Of a stretch of DNA of 64,000 bases, positions 2,126 through 61,866 are shown piece after piece. The translations under genes and the position numbers were made by a program. The notes under the pieces were generated by a model. The model made no database searches and was not told where the DNA came from. It worked only from the letters and a program-made list of their open reading frames with translations. The stretch comes from Marinobacter qingdaonensis (GTDB lineage: Bacteria > Pseudomonadota > Gammaproteobacteria > Pseudomonadales > Oleiphilaceae): contig NZ_JAYDCJ010000003.1 in the NCBI RefSeq assembly GCF_034555935.1, positions 2,294,001 through 2,358,000 on the forward strand, given 5' to 3'. Numbering within the stretch: position 1 is the first letter of the stretch; each line of letters starts with the position of its first letter.

Positions 2126-4424
2126 TGGCCGCCCGCAACTCGTCCCGGTTGTAGGGCTTGGTCACGTAATCGTTCATGCCGGCGGCGATGCAGTCCTCGC
2201 GGTCGCCCTGCATGACATTGGCGGTCACCGCGATGATGGGCAGGTCACGCCAGTTCGGGTTCTTGCGGATTCGGCGAGTGGCCTCGTAACCGTCCATGAT
2301 CGGCATCTGGCAGTCCATCAACACCAGATCATAGCGGTCGGCTTCAAGCGCCTCCAGCGCGCGCTGGCCATTCTCCGCATGATCGACCTGATGGCCCAGT
2401 TTTTTCAGCAGGCTGCTGGCCACCATCTGATTGACCTGATTGTCCTCGACCAGCAGGATTTTCAGGGTGGCCTGTGTGGTCGCCGGGGTCAGGGTTGGAA
2501 TCGGCTGGACCTCGGTGTCCTCCCGCAGGATGCCGACCACCCGGCACAGGCATCGATACAGTTCATCCCGCCGCAGCGGCAGGGACAGGAACTGGTGGCT
2601 GGCGCCACTCCGGTTCGAGGTTCCGGTGGCATTGGCCAGAATAACCCCTTCACCTTGCCAGCCTTGCGCCAGGTCGGGCGCCGGATTGTCGCCGTTCTCC
2701 GCCATGGCTATCAAAACGCCGCCCTGGTCGTCCTCGGGTTCCCACACCGGGATACGCCAGGCCCTCAGTTGCCGTTCGATGGGGGAGCGATGGGCATTGC
2801 CGGGGCCGATCACCAGGGTTACCCCGATATTTCGAAGCCGCGCCGCGACCTTGGGCAACTCGTCCCGACTGCTGTCCTCGTGCATGGGCAAAGGCAGGGT
2901 CACCGTAAAGTGGGTGCCACGGCCCTGACGGGAATCCACCAGAATCTGACCGTGCATGCGTTCCACCAGCTGCCGACACAGGGTCAGGCCCAGACCGGTA
3001 CCGCCGTAGAGGCGCGTGGTCTCGGCATCGGCCTGGGAGAAGGGTGAGAAGATCTTGTGCAGGGCCTCGGACGACATGCCGATACCCGTGTCGATGACAT
3101 CCAGGCGCAGGCTGCCGTCGGCGTAGCTGGCCTTGATGAAGACCGAACCCTCGTCGGTAAACTTGATGGCGTTGCTGAGCAGGTTGTTGAGGATCTGGCG
3201 GGTGCGGGTCGGGTCGCCCAAGAAGCTTTCGGGCAGGGCCGGATCGATCTCGTTCACCAGTTCGATGTTTTTGCGCCGGGCCTGCTGGGCGTGCAGGGTT
3301 GCCGATTCCTCGATCAGGTTGCGCATGCTGAAGGGAATGTTTTCCAGACTCAGCTTGCCGGCCTCGACCTTGGAGATGTCGAGGATGTCGTTGAGCAGCC
3401 CCAGCAGGCTTTCACCGGCGTTGAAGGCGACCTCCAGCCGGTCGCGCAGGGTCGGGTCCAGATTGCCCTCCAGGGCCAGGCCCAGCATCCCGAGCACGCC
3501 GTTCAGGGGCGTGCGGATCTCGTGACTCATGCTGGCGAGGAAGTTGGCCCGGGCCCGAGCCCGGCGCATGGCGTCTTCCTTGGCCTTGATCAGGGCGCGG
3601 TTGCTCCGTTGCAGGGCCTCGTTCTTCTCGGAGATCTCCCGGGTCCGGTCGTCGACTTCCTGTTCCAGCTGGGACGAGTAATTTTTCATGGCCGTCTCGG
3701 CCGTGCGCAGCTGGGCCAGGCTGGAATCGATGGTTTCCAGGTGCTGGTTGATGATGCCGACCATGGTGCCGATTTCATCTTCCTGGTGGTTCGCCGGCAC
3801 CGGCAGGCGCACCTTTTCCGGAGAGCTGGCCTTGACCTGGCCCAGGGCGCTGATCACGTTCAGCATCGGCCGGGTCAGCACCAGGTAGAAAATACCGAGC
3901 AGGGCCGCGGTCAGGATCAGGCTTTTCAGCAGGCCGCTGACCAGGGTGTAACTGGCCCGTTCCAGGAACTGCAGGCCGTAATGGTAGGTGTCGATGGTGA
4001 CGATGAGCTGGCCCAGGGGCAGATCTTCCAGCTGCGGCACCCGAAGCTCCTGGCTGAACACCCGGCTGGCCTCGAACAGCAGGTCGCTGATCCGTCGGTA
4101 GGGGGAATCGGGGCTGCTCTGACTCGCCGCGGCCATGGTCTGGCCGTCGTTGTCGATGATTCGCGCGTCGATGGTGGCAGGGTGGCGGAGCAGACCGTCG
4201 AGCAGCTCCTCGGCGAGCCGGACATCGATGTTGTAGGCAATCTGGGACGCCGGGCTCACGCTGATGTCGATCAGGGCGTGAATTTCCTCTTCCATGGACT
4301 GCCGGGCGTTGAAATAGTCCAGGGTAATCTGGATGACGTTGAGCACCAGCCCCAGGGCCATGGCGACCAGAACGGTGTCACGGGTCAGGCGAAAAGAGAG
4401 GCGTTTCCGGAAACCTTTGATCAC
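2091..4424 (-). CDS. Hybrid sensor histidine kinase with pseudo-receiver and receiver domains
   Basis: A 777-residue inner-membrane kinase. It has a TM segment at about 15-37, a periplasmic sensor region (38-160), a second TM (about 161-183), a HAMP/coiled-coil linker, and the HisKA phospho-acceptor His301 in SMSHEIRTPLN. The ATPase domain has an N box near 413-422, DTGIGM (445-450) and GGTGLGL (474-480). A C-terminal receiver starts at ILLVEDN (656), with Asp704 in LMDCQMP and Lys756. Between them, residues 528-630 look like a receiver that has lost its acidic pocket. There is no HPt domain, so a separate phosphotransfer protein is needed. The unknown membrane protein lies 53 bases upstream on the same strand. 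The ligand cannot be inferred. Confidence 0.9.
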   Translation of the reverse strand: MIKGFRKRLSFRLTRDTVLVAMALGLVLNVIQITLDYFNARQSMEEEIHALIDISVSPASQIAYNIDVRLAEELLDGLLRHPATIDARIIDNDGQTMAAASQSSPDSPYRRISDLLFEASRVFSQELRVPQLEDLPLGQLIVTIDTYHYGLQFLERASYTLVSGLLKSLILTAALLGIFYLVLTRPMLNVISALGQVKASSPEKVRLPVPANHQEDEIGTMVGIINQHLETIDSSLAQLRTAETAMKNYSSQLEQEVDDRTREISEKNEALQRSNRALIKAKEDAMRRARARANFLASMSHEIRTPLNGVLGMLGLALEGNLDPTLRDRLEVAFNAGESLLGLLNDILDISKVEAGKLSLENIPFSMRNLIEESATLHAQQARRKNIELVNEIDPALPESFLGDPTRTRQILNNLLSNAIKFTDEGSVFIKASYADGSLRLDVIDTGIGMSSEALHKIFSPFSQADAETTRLYGGTGLGLTLCRQLVERMHGQILVDSRQGRGTHFTVTLPLPMHEDSSRDELPKVAARLRNIGVTLVIGPGNAHRSPIERQLRAWRIPVWEPEDDQGGVLIAMAENGDNPAPDLAQGWQGEGVILANATGTSNRSGASHQFLSLPLRRDELYRCLCRVVGILREDTEVQPIPTLTPATTQATLKILLVEDNQVNQMVASSLLKKLGHQVDHAENGQRALEALEADRYDLVLMDCQMPIMDGYEATRRIRKNPNWRDLPIIAVTANVMQGDREDCIAAGMNDYVTKPYNRDELRAAITRWAPPLPEH

Positions 4425-17685: not shown

Positions 17686-18399
17686 TCACGCCTCCGGCCC
17701 GGGCCATTGCCAGCGCATTTCCCAGGTCCGTTGTTTCGGTTTGCGACCAACGCATGCCCTGAGTATAGATAAAAACTCGCCCCGGGGAATGGTGCGGGCC
17801 CCCATGGTCAGCAGGTGCCGGCTTTCCACCTGGCAGTCCATGATCTTGTAGTCCCAGTCCTGGAGCTGGTGCGCCAGGTGCACCATCAGGACTTTCGAGG
17901 CATTGGTCTCGAGGGAAAACATGGATTCGCCGAAAAAGCACTGGCCAATGGCCAGGCCGTACATGCCCCCGGCCAGCTCGCCGGCCCGGTTCCAGACCTC
18001 GATGGAGTGGGCGTAGCCCAACCGATGCAGCTCGGAATAGCTGGCGATCATGTCCTCGGTGATCCAGGTGCCTTCGGCCCGGGTTGTGGCGCAAAGCCGG
18101 ATGATGCGGCCGAACGCCTGGTCGGCGGTGACGCTGAATTTCTTCTGGTTGAGGGTTCGCCGCAGGCTGCGGGACACGTGCACTTCTTCGGGAACGAGCA
18201 CGCAGCGGGGGTTGGGTGACCACCAGAGGATCGGCTGGTCGTCGCTGTACCAGGGGAAGATGCCGTTGGTGTAGGCAAGCAGGAGTCGGTCGGTCGAGAG
18301 GTCGCCACCCAGGGCAAGGAGTCCGTCGGGATCGTCGAGTGCCTCGTCGGCGGGCGGGAACCAGAGTTGGTCCGGGTCTAGCCAGGGTAGTGAGGTCAT
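17686..18399 (-). CDS. aat: Leucyl/phenylalanyl-tRNA-protein transferase (Aat)
   Basis: A 237-residue transferase that attaches Leu or Phe from charged tRNA to proteins with N-terminal Arg or Lys. Family blocks are present: LLALGGDLS, LAYTNGIFPWYSDDQPILWWSPNPRCVL (in part), EGTWITEDMIASYSELHRLGYAHS and GGMYGLAIGQCFFGESMFS. The frame is open back to 18516, but that extra sequence reads into the palindromic element at 18449-18553. The family start MTSLPWLDPD corresponds to the ATG at 18399. With bpt, clpS and clpA it makes a full N-degron pathway within 4.5 kb. Confidence 0.95.
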   Translation of the reverse strand: MTSLPWLDPDQLWFPPADEALDDPDGLLALGGDLSTDRLLLAYTNGIFPWYSDDQPILWWSPNPRCVLVPEEVHVSRSLRRTLNQKKFSVTADQAFGRIIRLCATTRAEGTWITEDMIASYSELHRLGYAHSIEVWNRAGELAGGMYGLAIGQCFFGESMFSLETNASKVLMVHLAHQLQDWDYKIMDCQVESRHLLTMGARTIPRGEFLSILRACVGRKPKQRTWEMRWQWPGPEA

Positions 18400-18448
18400 C
18401 CTGCTCCGGTGTGGGAGTTCGCCTGGGTGATTCTTGCTTTGGAGTTCG

Positions 18449-18553
18449 GCCCCTCGGAAGCCGGCCGCTGAAACACGCTGTGGATACGTCCCTGTATGCT
18501 TGGCTCCGCCATCCATGGCTTCGCACAGTTTCAGCGGCCGACTCCCGAGGGGC
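18449..18553 (-). repeat. 105-bp palindromic element with two inner hairpins, between trxB and aat
   Basis: Arms of 26 bases at 18449-18474 and 18528-18553 are complementary at 24 positions. In the minus-strand transcript, the direction of trxB and aat, both mismatches become G-U pairs, so the RNA stem is complete. Inside, TGTG (18479-18482) can pair with CACA (18524-18527). Two small hairpins follow: 18484-18497 (RNA AUACAGGGACGUAU) and 18508-18519 (RNA GCCAUGGAUGGC). The first is one base off the CsrA/RsmA consensus RUACARGGAUGU over 12 positions, and the second also presents GGA in its loop. There is no T run, so it is not a simple terminator. No second copy was noticed here. Confidence 0.7.
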
Positions 18554-18564
18554 TTGCCGTCCTA

Positions 18565-18588: not shown

Positions 18589-19551
<963 letters not shown>

Positions 19552-39519: not shown

Positions 39520-39532
39520 GGCGTCTGGGCAC

Positions 39533-39562
39533 AAAAAAGCCGGCACGGGTGCCGGCTTTTTT
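39533..39562. terminator. Bidirectional terminator between leuA and the cold-shock gene
   Basis: GCCGGCA (39539-39545) pairs with TGCCGGC (39550-39556) around CGGG. Six A precede it and six T follow, so it can end both leuA (+) and the convergent csp gene (-). Confidence 0.9.
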
Positions 39563-39609
39563 ATTTTCCCATGCCCGTGAGGGGCAAAGGACGGAAAGGG
39601 TAACTCCGA

Positions 39610-39819
39610 TCAGACCGGGGTTACGTTTTCCGCCTGCGGACCTTTCGGCCCCTGAGTAACGGTGAACTGCACCTGCTGGCCTTCGGTCAGGGTGCGGAAA
39701 CCGGAAGCGTTGATGGCGCTGTAGTGAACAAATACGTCACTGCCGCCATCCTGAGCGATGAAGCCAAAGCCTTTGGATTCGTTGAACCACTTAACGTGGC
39801 CGGTTTTAGTATCGGACAT
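39610..39819 (-). CDS. CspA-type cold-shock protein
   Basis: A 69-residue single cold-shock domain with RNP1 KGFGFIA and RNP2 VFVHYSAI and the family ending [13 protein letters not shown]. Proteins of this type melt RNA secondary structure and act as antiterminators or general RNA chaperones. It lacks the tail of CspD. The promoter at 39985-40012 puts the start of transcription about 160 bases upstream of the ATG, the long leader typical of cold-inducible csp genes. Confidence 0.95.
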
Positions 39820-39984
39820 TGATCTTTCCTGTCTTTCTGAAATTTGCCCTCACGGGACCTTCATATTCCTTGTGGAATGAATGCTGAGAAATCCAGAGAG
39901 TACTGAGGAAGGAGCAACGAAGAGCACTTCGGCAGGACGTTGTAGCGCATTCACCAAATACCGCTGTATTTTCACAGCAATTTC
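39820..39984 (-). promoter_or_regulatory. Probable long 5' leader of the cold-shock mRNA
   Basis: About 160 bases separate the predicted transcription start (near 39978) from the csp ATG. Nothing is coded there. Long structured leaders control mRNA stability and translation at low temperature in cspA genes. I infer that role from length and position; no cold-box match was attempted. Confidence 0.5.
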
Positions 39985-40012
39985 AGTATAGACCGAGTTT
40001 GGGGGGCGTCAA
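39985..40012 (-). promoter_or_regulatory. Sigma70 promoter of the cold-shock gene
   Basis: On the minus strand TTGACG (40007-40012) and TATACT (39985-39990) are separated by 16 bases. Both are one or two bases from consensus. Confidence 0.7.
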
Positions 40013-61651: not shown

Positions 61652-61727
61652 GGGTCGTTAGCTCAGTTGGTAGAGCAGTTGGCTTTTAACCAATTGGTCG
61701 AAGGTTCGAATCCTTCACGACCCACCA
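61652..61727 (+). tRNA. tRNA-Lys (anticodon UUU)
   Basis: A 76-base gene with encoded CCA. The acceptor GGGTCGT pairs with ACGACCC, D stem GCTC/GAGC, anticodon stem GTTGG/CCAAT around CTTTTAA (anticodon TTT), and T stem GAAGG/CCTTC with loop TTCGAAT. MnmA (10.7-11.9 kb) thiolates U34 of this tRNA. Confidence 0.98.
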
Positions 61728-61790: not shown

Positions 61791-61866
61791 GGGTCGTTAG
61801 CTCAGTTGGTAGAGCAGTTGGCTTTTAACCAATTGGTCGAAGGTTCGAATCCTTCACGACCCACCA
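61791..61866 (+). tRNA. tRNA-Lys (anticodon UUU), second identical copy
   Basis: Base-for-base identical to the copy at 61652-61727, separated by a 63-base spacer that is not itself repeated. Both lie in one transcription unit ending at the terminator 61901-61924. Confidence 0.98.

Follow-up and report, generated by a model that had tools for sequence, protein, structure and literature searches.

A palindromic element lies between two genes, which we take to be trxB and aat following the preliminary description of their open reading frames, in the window, that is, the whole 64-kb stretch of Marinobacter DNA analysed, and it runs in the same direction as both. About sixty elements of this kind, the palindrome among them, are dispersed over the Marinobacter genome. 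The element, its parts and its neighbours are positioned as follows.

18449-18553, minus strand: whole element, a TwoAYGGAY-like dispersed hairpin, placed by a covariance-model (R1) match and by sequence
18528-18553, minus strand: 5' arm of the long stem, 26 nt, complementary to 18449-18474
18508-18519, minus strand (read 18519-18508): hairpin 1, GCCAUGGAUGGC, with a loop that fits CANGGANG; consensus in 159 of 160 copies from three genomes
18484-18497, minus strand (read 18497-18484): hairpin 2, AUACAGGGACGUAU, with a loop that fits (A/U)CANGGANG(U/A); consensus, flanking pair included, in 152 of 160 copies
18449-18474, minus strand: 3' arm of the long stem, 26 nt, complementary to 18528-18553
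18589-19542, minus strand: trxB-like open reading frame, 317 aa, a neighbour outside the element that ends 35 nt ahead of the 5' arm
17686-18399, minus strand: aat-like open reading frame, a neighbour outside the element with its ATG 49 nt past it

The 26-base arms, described previously as pairing at 24 of 26 positions, do so on direct reading, with 24 Watson-Crick pairs, and the two exceptions are indeed G-U in minus-strand RNA, where the plus strand has A.C. They flank a 53-nt core containing both hairpins, the loops of this copy being CAUGGAUG and CAGGGACG. The CsrA SELEX consensus is RUACARGGAUGU, and the reported identity of AUACAGGGACGUAU to it at 11 of 12 positions is correct; the paired GGA loops, given as ~20 bases apart, have GGA starts separated by 23 nt. 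The folding energy of minus-strand RNA covering 18440-18562 is -72.1 kcal/mol (z -6.8, with 0 of 200 dinucleotide shuffles as good), and the plus strand in the same test gave a z of -5.4, again with 0 shuffles as good. The claim of two small hairpins held for the sequences, which are present, but not for the predicted fold, as the minimum free energy (MFE) structure of the window copy contains neither and forcing both carries a penalty of 2.1 kcal/mol (-65.6 vs -67.7). Over 160 copies, hairpin 1 was drawn in 132 and hairpin 2 in only 25 MFE structures, the latter figure counting against the CsrA-binding RNA reading. Folding alone was therefore rejected as proof of the small hairpins, and support for them has to come from comparison because the MFE structure of the window copy omits them; the predicted hairpin 2 rests on covariation, its stem showing C-G/U-A and A-U/C-G exchanges.

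The model R1, built from an alignment of 40 own-genome copies, matches the window copy at 18454-18548 (minus) with 94.1 bits (E 4e-18), a score that is not independent, as this copy is among the 40 used for building; over the 64-kb window at E 0.05 the trxB-aat copy is the single match. Other RNA matches observed were a cspA thermoregulator (RF01766) at 39531-39992 (minus) of the window, with 83.3 bits vs a cut-off of 78, two tRNA matches of equal score at 61652-61724 and 61791-61863 (plus) of the window, and a 6S RNA match of 87.8 bits at 2533-2714 (minus) of locus L015.

A dispersed family with conserved structure, strand preference and loops

A BLAST search of the element against its own genome returned 45 match rows, two of which are its own arms matching each other, and two of the 42 pattern rows, having no real stem, were left out of the alignment from which R1 was built. 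R1 in turn detects 60 copies in this genome at E ≤ 1.6e-12, followed by a gap to 3e-4, a count that includes the 40 copies used for building. BLAST and R1 together thus reject a single-copy accident, and the palindrome is beyond chance because 60 strong copies are present in the genome. The covariance-model check suggested in the preliminary description was strongly positive: many copies were found in which stem changes compensate one another and the GGA loops are retained. Of the 61 Marinobacter genomes sampled, counting the own genome, 60 gave R1 matches at E 0.01, with copies per genome ranging from 0 (G049) through 3 up to at least 68, the latter in 16 of the 61. In wider samples, R1 matched 111 genomes out of 293 in the order sample (E 1e-5), belonging to 53 of 118 genera, and 60 out of 369 in the class sample, Gammaproteobacteria (E 1e-6), belonging to 54 of 272 genera; both samples contain the own genome, and per-genome counts are lower bounds in which the best 14 (order) or best 11 (class) candidates were scored. 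No plasmid relatives were found at E 1. Along contig C3 of the own genome, 40 of 53 elements fall within 0.76-2.08 Mb and two within 2.08-2.93 Mb; no replication-strand bias was apparent, the element strands looking mixed by eye along this contig.

The stem is retained while its sequence is free. In the 40 own-genome copies, 98.7% of 1200 cells are paired and 24 of 30 pairs have changed on both sides, amounting to 309 cells, where shuffles give 78.6; pairing falls to 33.5-45.2% when the partners are offset by 1-3 columns. Among 33 elements from 29 other Gammaproteobacterial genomes, aligned with prior fitting to the structure, 98.5% of cells are paired, the covariation score is 1.00 vs 0.20 when shuffled, and 388 cells have changed on both sides vs 103.8 in shuffles; two-sided change in 27 of 30 pairs is less telling here, since 12 of 500 shuffles reached it. 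A third set of 25 elements (the window copy plus 24 upstream of aat elsewhere; 24 distinct rows), likewise fitted to the structure beforehand, is 96.8% paired, with 23 of 30 pairs changed on both sides. Arm sequences vary among copies, and among species at one site, with complementarity kept, such that most arm positions are free and the loops fixed. Conservation in the distant set (n=33) extends to the junction and the base of hairpin 2, where A50, G51, G73 and G75 are each present in 33 of 33. To our knowledge this exceeds what CsrA is known to need and counts against the CsrA reading.

In the 160 copies from three genomes (60 own, 47 from G028 and 53 from G055), which are partly orthologous and so not independent, CANGGANG is found 159 times in loop 1 and 152 times in loop 2. 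Copies were located by GGA inside two Watson-Crick pairs at a fixed distance, leaving the pair letters and the A free, and 100 of the 101 element matches listed were used. The first N takes all four letters in both loops and the second N three or four. An outer A-U pair closes hairpin 2 in 142 of the 154 found, whereas hairpin 1 has C-G instead (149 of 159). Both GGAs are present in 33 of 33 distant elements, as are a C and an A before the second GGA and a G after it. The RsmA/RsmE motif given in a passage of PMC6849547 is CANGGANG, extended to A/U CANGGANG U/A. The loop sequences of the family fit this kind of site, and both the CANGGANG loops with variable N positions and the loop GGA conservation in the distant set are counted for the CsrA/RsmA reading.

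Arm mismatches reveal a strand preference. Stems were called by Watson-Crick pairs alone, with equal cost for every mismatch, and G.T nevertheless outnumbers A.C by 189 to 10 in the 160 copies (p 6e-44) and by 42 to 1 in 40 own copies (p 1e-11). A G.T mismatch is G-U on the GGA strand and appears as A.C for the opposite strand; therefore the GGA strand is the strand that folds. The G.T:A.C ratio is 59:2 for elements sense to both neighbouring genes, 47:0 for convergent, 21:0 for divergent, 46:5 for antisense to both and 16:3 for unclear contexts, the antisense class having slightly more A.C than the other clear classes (p 0.02). A weaker bias, 17 G.T vs 4 A.C (p 0.007), was observed in 22 elements at the aat loci of other genomes and is counted against the CsrA-binding RNA reading. 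A strand-tied mutational bias or folding of single-stranded DNA could also give an excess of G.T.

Gene context and dispersal

As determined with a home-made codon-usage gene caller, 39 of 40 own copies and 151 of 160 three-genome copies are clearly intergenic, the remaining 9 of 160 having unclear contexts. The GGA strand is sense to both genes in 46 copies and antisense to both in 39 (p 0.52), and 45 copies lie between convergent vs 21 between divergent genes (p 0.004). A sigma-70-like signal was not enriched upstream of the 5' arm over the 160 copies relative to downstream and shuffled controls, which gives no support to an own promoter of this type at this position. The near-equal numbers of sense and antisense copies, combined with this result, leave the transcription of many copies without explanation, which is counted against a role as RNA. 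The context counts and the sigma-70 result also suggest that a terminator or a leader of the neighbouring gene fits poorly. By eye, no T-run directly follows the stem in 40 flanks, and a terminator was rejected on this basis and on the occurrence of divergent and antisense contexts.

A broader version of this explanation is that the element is an mRNA 3'-end or intergenic structure, acting as a terminator, RNase III site or RNase barrier, with incidental loops. Stems of 20-30 bp would suit such a role, as would the excess of convergent sites and the proximity of gene stops, 30 of 45 such sides being no more than 40 nt away from the stem (a hand count with the rough gene caller). Besides the missing U-tracts, it is opposed by the 21 of 151 clear copies between divergent genes, by a strand bias that holds even for copies whose GGA strand runs antisense to either neighbour, and by conservation in the loops and not in the stem sequence. 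We consider this explanation improbable.

Of 55 aat loci in Marinobacter, 23 have an R1 match immediately upstream of the gene, and in one of these (L060) the trxB flank is absent by eye. One more, interrupted by an insertion, is visible by eye at L041, for a total of about 24 of 55, and L044 retains what by eye is a remnant. Outside the genus, an element lies just upstream of aat in Microbulbifer halophilus (L097, 2834-2927). The earlier proposal of aat-bpt control, taken here as an RsmA site in the aat leader, draws on this recurrence and on the sense-oriented position 49 nt ahead of the aat start. Set against it are the other Marinobacter loci, in which no element was found upstream of aat, and the 59 other own-genome copies, which lie elsewhere in all orientations to their neighbours. 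Local control is therefore weakly supported, the element being present at about 24 of the 55 aat loci, and we regard it as very unlikely to be what the element is for.

Orthologous copies were compared between G028 and G055, which share 44 such sites with flanks roughly 88-97% identical (median about 94%). Outer-arm identity over these 44 pairs ranges from 1.0 to 0.41. Allowing shifts of up to 3 nt, 16 pairs are at or above 0.85, 17 lie between and 11, including the trxB-aat pair, are below 0.5, low identities being inflated by scoring the best of seven shifts; this continuum led to rejection of a strictly two-class turnover of the arms. A weak 72-nt match at G055:3804094, about which an interrupted element lies, was left out of the first arm comparison. 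Sequences that are partly palindromic interrupt the core by eye at L041, L197, L280 and L288. Three of the 44 orthologous pairs are flipped between G028 and G055, and at one orthologous site (L171-L200) the core is on opposite strands across species between arms that look similar by eye. This suggests that the core appears to invert between the arms across species. Close pairs, defined as elements less than 1 kb apart (in the own genome, for example, C3:949650-949925, L028 1452-1727), have 5' ends facing in 8 of 9 cases in the own genome (p 1e-4) and in every case in G028 (3 of 3) and G055 (6 of 6); some of these pairs are orthologous. At L172 and L173, a second repeated hairpin, GGGGTCAGATGAAAGCTTTCATCTGACCCC, adjoins the element site.

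Eleven elements are unmatched between G028 and G055. Two of these do occur in the other genome, where an additional insertion accompanies them; one is represented by a short hairpin remnant, five sites have no recognisable element and three are unplaceable. The readable empty sites resemble deletions by eye, two with short end homologies, and clean insertion sites were rejected, none having been found among the 11. At sites 1930134, 1080112 and 1760061 the own genome seems, by eye, to have the element, making loss likely at those three. The Y1 transposase (PF01797) has 0 matches in the own genome (G000), G028 and G055, all of which are element-rich, while G049 has 0 elements with 3 Y1_Tnp matches and G004 has 7 elements with 22. 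A Y1/RAYT transposase was therefore rejected as the mover, its presence being unassociated with copy number. Outer arms are rarely common within a genome, 13 of 16 letters being shared in 6 of 1770, 0 of 903 and 3 of 1176 pairs, compared with 0 in shuffled controls.

Near-random orientation, apparent core inversion and facing pairs combine to suggest that this is a dispersing element as well. An explanation confined to DNA takes it for a mobile or formerly mobile, REPIN- or MITE-like element, whose single strand would fold and whose CANGGANG loops would be recognised by a transposase or recombinase and not by CsrA. Such an element would accommodate copy numbers of 0, 3 and up to at least 68 per Marinobacter genome, the near-random orientation to genes, the flipped orthologous pairs and opposite-strand core, the facing 5' ends of neighbouring elements (8 of 9 own-genome pairs) and the G.T bias, which suits single-stranded DNA equally. 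It accords less readily with loops that fit CsrA letter by letter, with the distribution of Y1 transposase, with empty sites that look like deletions instead of clean insertions, and with the rarity of common outer arms within a genome, even if the few sharings exceed the control. We judge an exclusively DNA-level function rather unlikely, but it merits serious consideration. The REP/REPIN, ERIC, Correia and YPAL palindromes are known for a conserved stem sequence. They resemble the Marinobacter elements in having many intergenic palindromic copies and paired inverted copies, and differ in that here the outer stem is free and the loops are conserved; REPIN/RAYT differs further, as Y1 transposase does not track element copy number.

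Relation to TwoAYGGAY and to CsrA sponge RNAs

TwoAYGGAY (RF01731) is the nearest named family found, and the Marinobacter elements look like a divergent branch of it. Both have two short GGA-loop hairpins on a long basal stem, with full-length alignments over 1-168, the long outer stem around both hairpins being present in the Marinobacter elements. Many copies have AUGGAU in loop 1 and AUGGAC or AUGGAU in loop 2, within a 160-copy pattern of ANGGAN; in contrast, the second loop of the window copy is AGGGAC and does not conform to AYGGAY. RF01731 gave 27 matches in the own genome at E ≤ 10, the best with 41.7 bits (4e-5), none of which reached the gathering score of 43, and the window copy was not matched at E 5 or E 10. 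None of the 20 distant loci scanned, from a set of 29, reached the cut-off, and a sub-threshold match was also obtained in 1 of 14 control genomes, Methanocaldococcus jannaschii. The Marinobacter family falls below the cut-off and therefore is not filed as a TwoAYGGAY member. It differs also in being many-copied and dispersed, a form unreported in the RF01731 material consulted.

A 2010 screen lists TwoAYGGAY for human gut, gammaproteobacteria and Clostridiales and, in the section concerned, considers it a probable RNA that is probably not cis-regulatory (PMC2864571). In 2014 it was matched to a CsrA-binding motif and CsrA sequestration in Clostridia was proposed, in a passage of PMC4333381, so the CsrA idea for RNA of the TwoAYGGAY type is already in print. 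Within the portions of the literature on TwoAYGGAY, CsrA/RsmA and Marinobacter repeats that were available, no report of the dispersed, high-copy, arm-variable form was found; it may carry another name. Sponge RNAs for CsrA/RsmA are described in PMC4333381 as having GGA in hairpin loops, usually paired, and the Alcanivorax RNAs CsrR1 and CsrR2 are credited with nine and six GGA motifs in PMC9788540, the main text of which does not include TwoAYGGAY. CsrB/C, RsmX/Y/Z and CsrR1/CsrR2 share GGA motifs in hairpin loops with the Marinobacter elements. In those RNAs, however, many sites are gathered on the product of one sRNA gene or of a 5'UTR, whereas the elements are ~100 nt in length with two loop sites each and many copies. 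The RsmZ model (RF00166) produced no own-genome match above its cut-off of 44, the best one, at 21.7 bits, being by eye a coding end plus a hairpin with a T-run.

A single CsrA match, in an open frame of 82 aa, was located in the own genome at C3:3016977-3017132. In the class sample, CsrA was found in 56 of 60 element-bearing genomes vs 257 of 309 others (p 0.049, with kinship and genome size uncontrolled) and, in genomes at least 90% complete, in 50 of 51 vs 230 of 263 (p 0.025, kinship uncontrolled). This co-occurrence counts as weak support because relatedness and genome size are uncontrolled. The CsrA search gave no match in 4 of the 60 element-bearing genomes, G351, G443, G538 and G684 (67-98% complete), and G538, 98% complete, would count against the CsrA reading if confirmed.

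CsrA/RsmA binding is the leading hypothesis for the family. These elements are probably a dispersed family of regulator-binding RNAs, the two tip loops fitting a CsrA/RsmA site, and a sponge role, raised in the preliminary description, is possible given the many copies. The GGA strand would be transcribed, and its RNA would form a stem of 20-30 bp that leads through a junction to two small hairpins, the loop of each presenting CANGGANG. One CsrA dimer may bridge both loops of an element, the arms serving as a sequence-free clamp that positions the loops and may block RNases. Many copies would titrate CsrA together as a distributed sponge, and effects on neighbouring genes would arise only by accident of position. 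That the main function is that of CsrA-binding RNA, the copies jointly forming a distributed CsrA buffer, is a view to which we lean by a small measure. CsrA-binding RNA and mobile element are not mutually exclusive. The fullest form of the model, which we advance tentatively and with well under even confidence, is that a dispersing family of ~100 nt spreads or persists as CsrA/RsmA-binding RNA in a genome-wide sponge, with loops and junction kept and the free self-complementary stem rebuilt on site by template switching or replacement.

The established view, also expressed in PMC4333381, is that a small number of dedicated sponge RNAs largely determine CsrA activity. If the proposed model is true, scores of dispersed two-site elements would mean a copy-number based setting of CsrA activity, and TwoAYGGAY, an RNA class of unassigned function, would become testable in culturable Marinobacter. 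The stems would provide an unusually clean natural experiment, in which structure is kept and sequence turned over at identical sites in close species.
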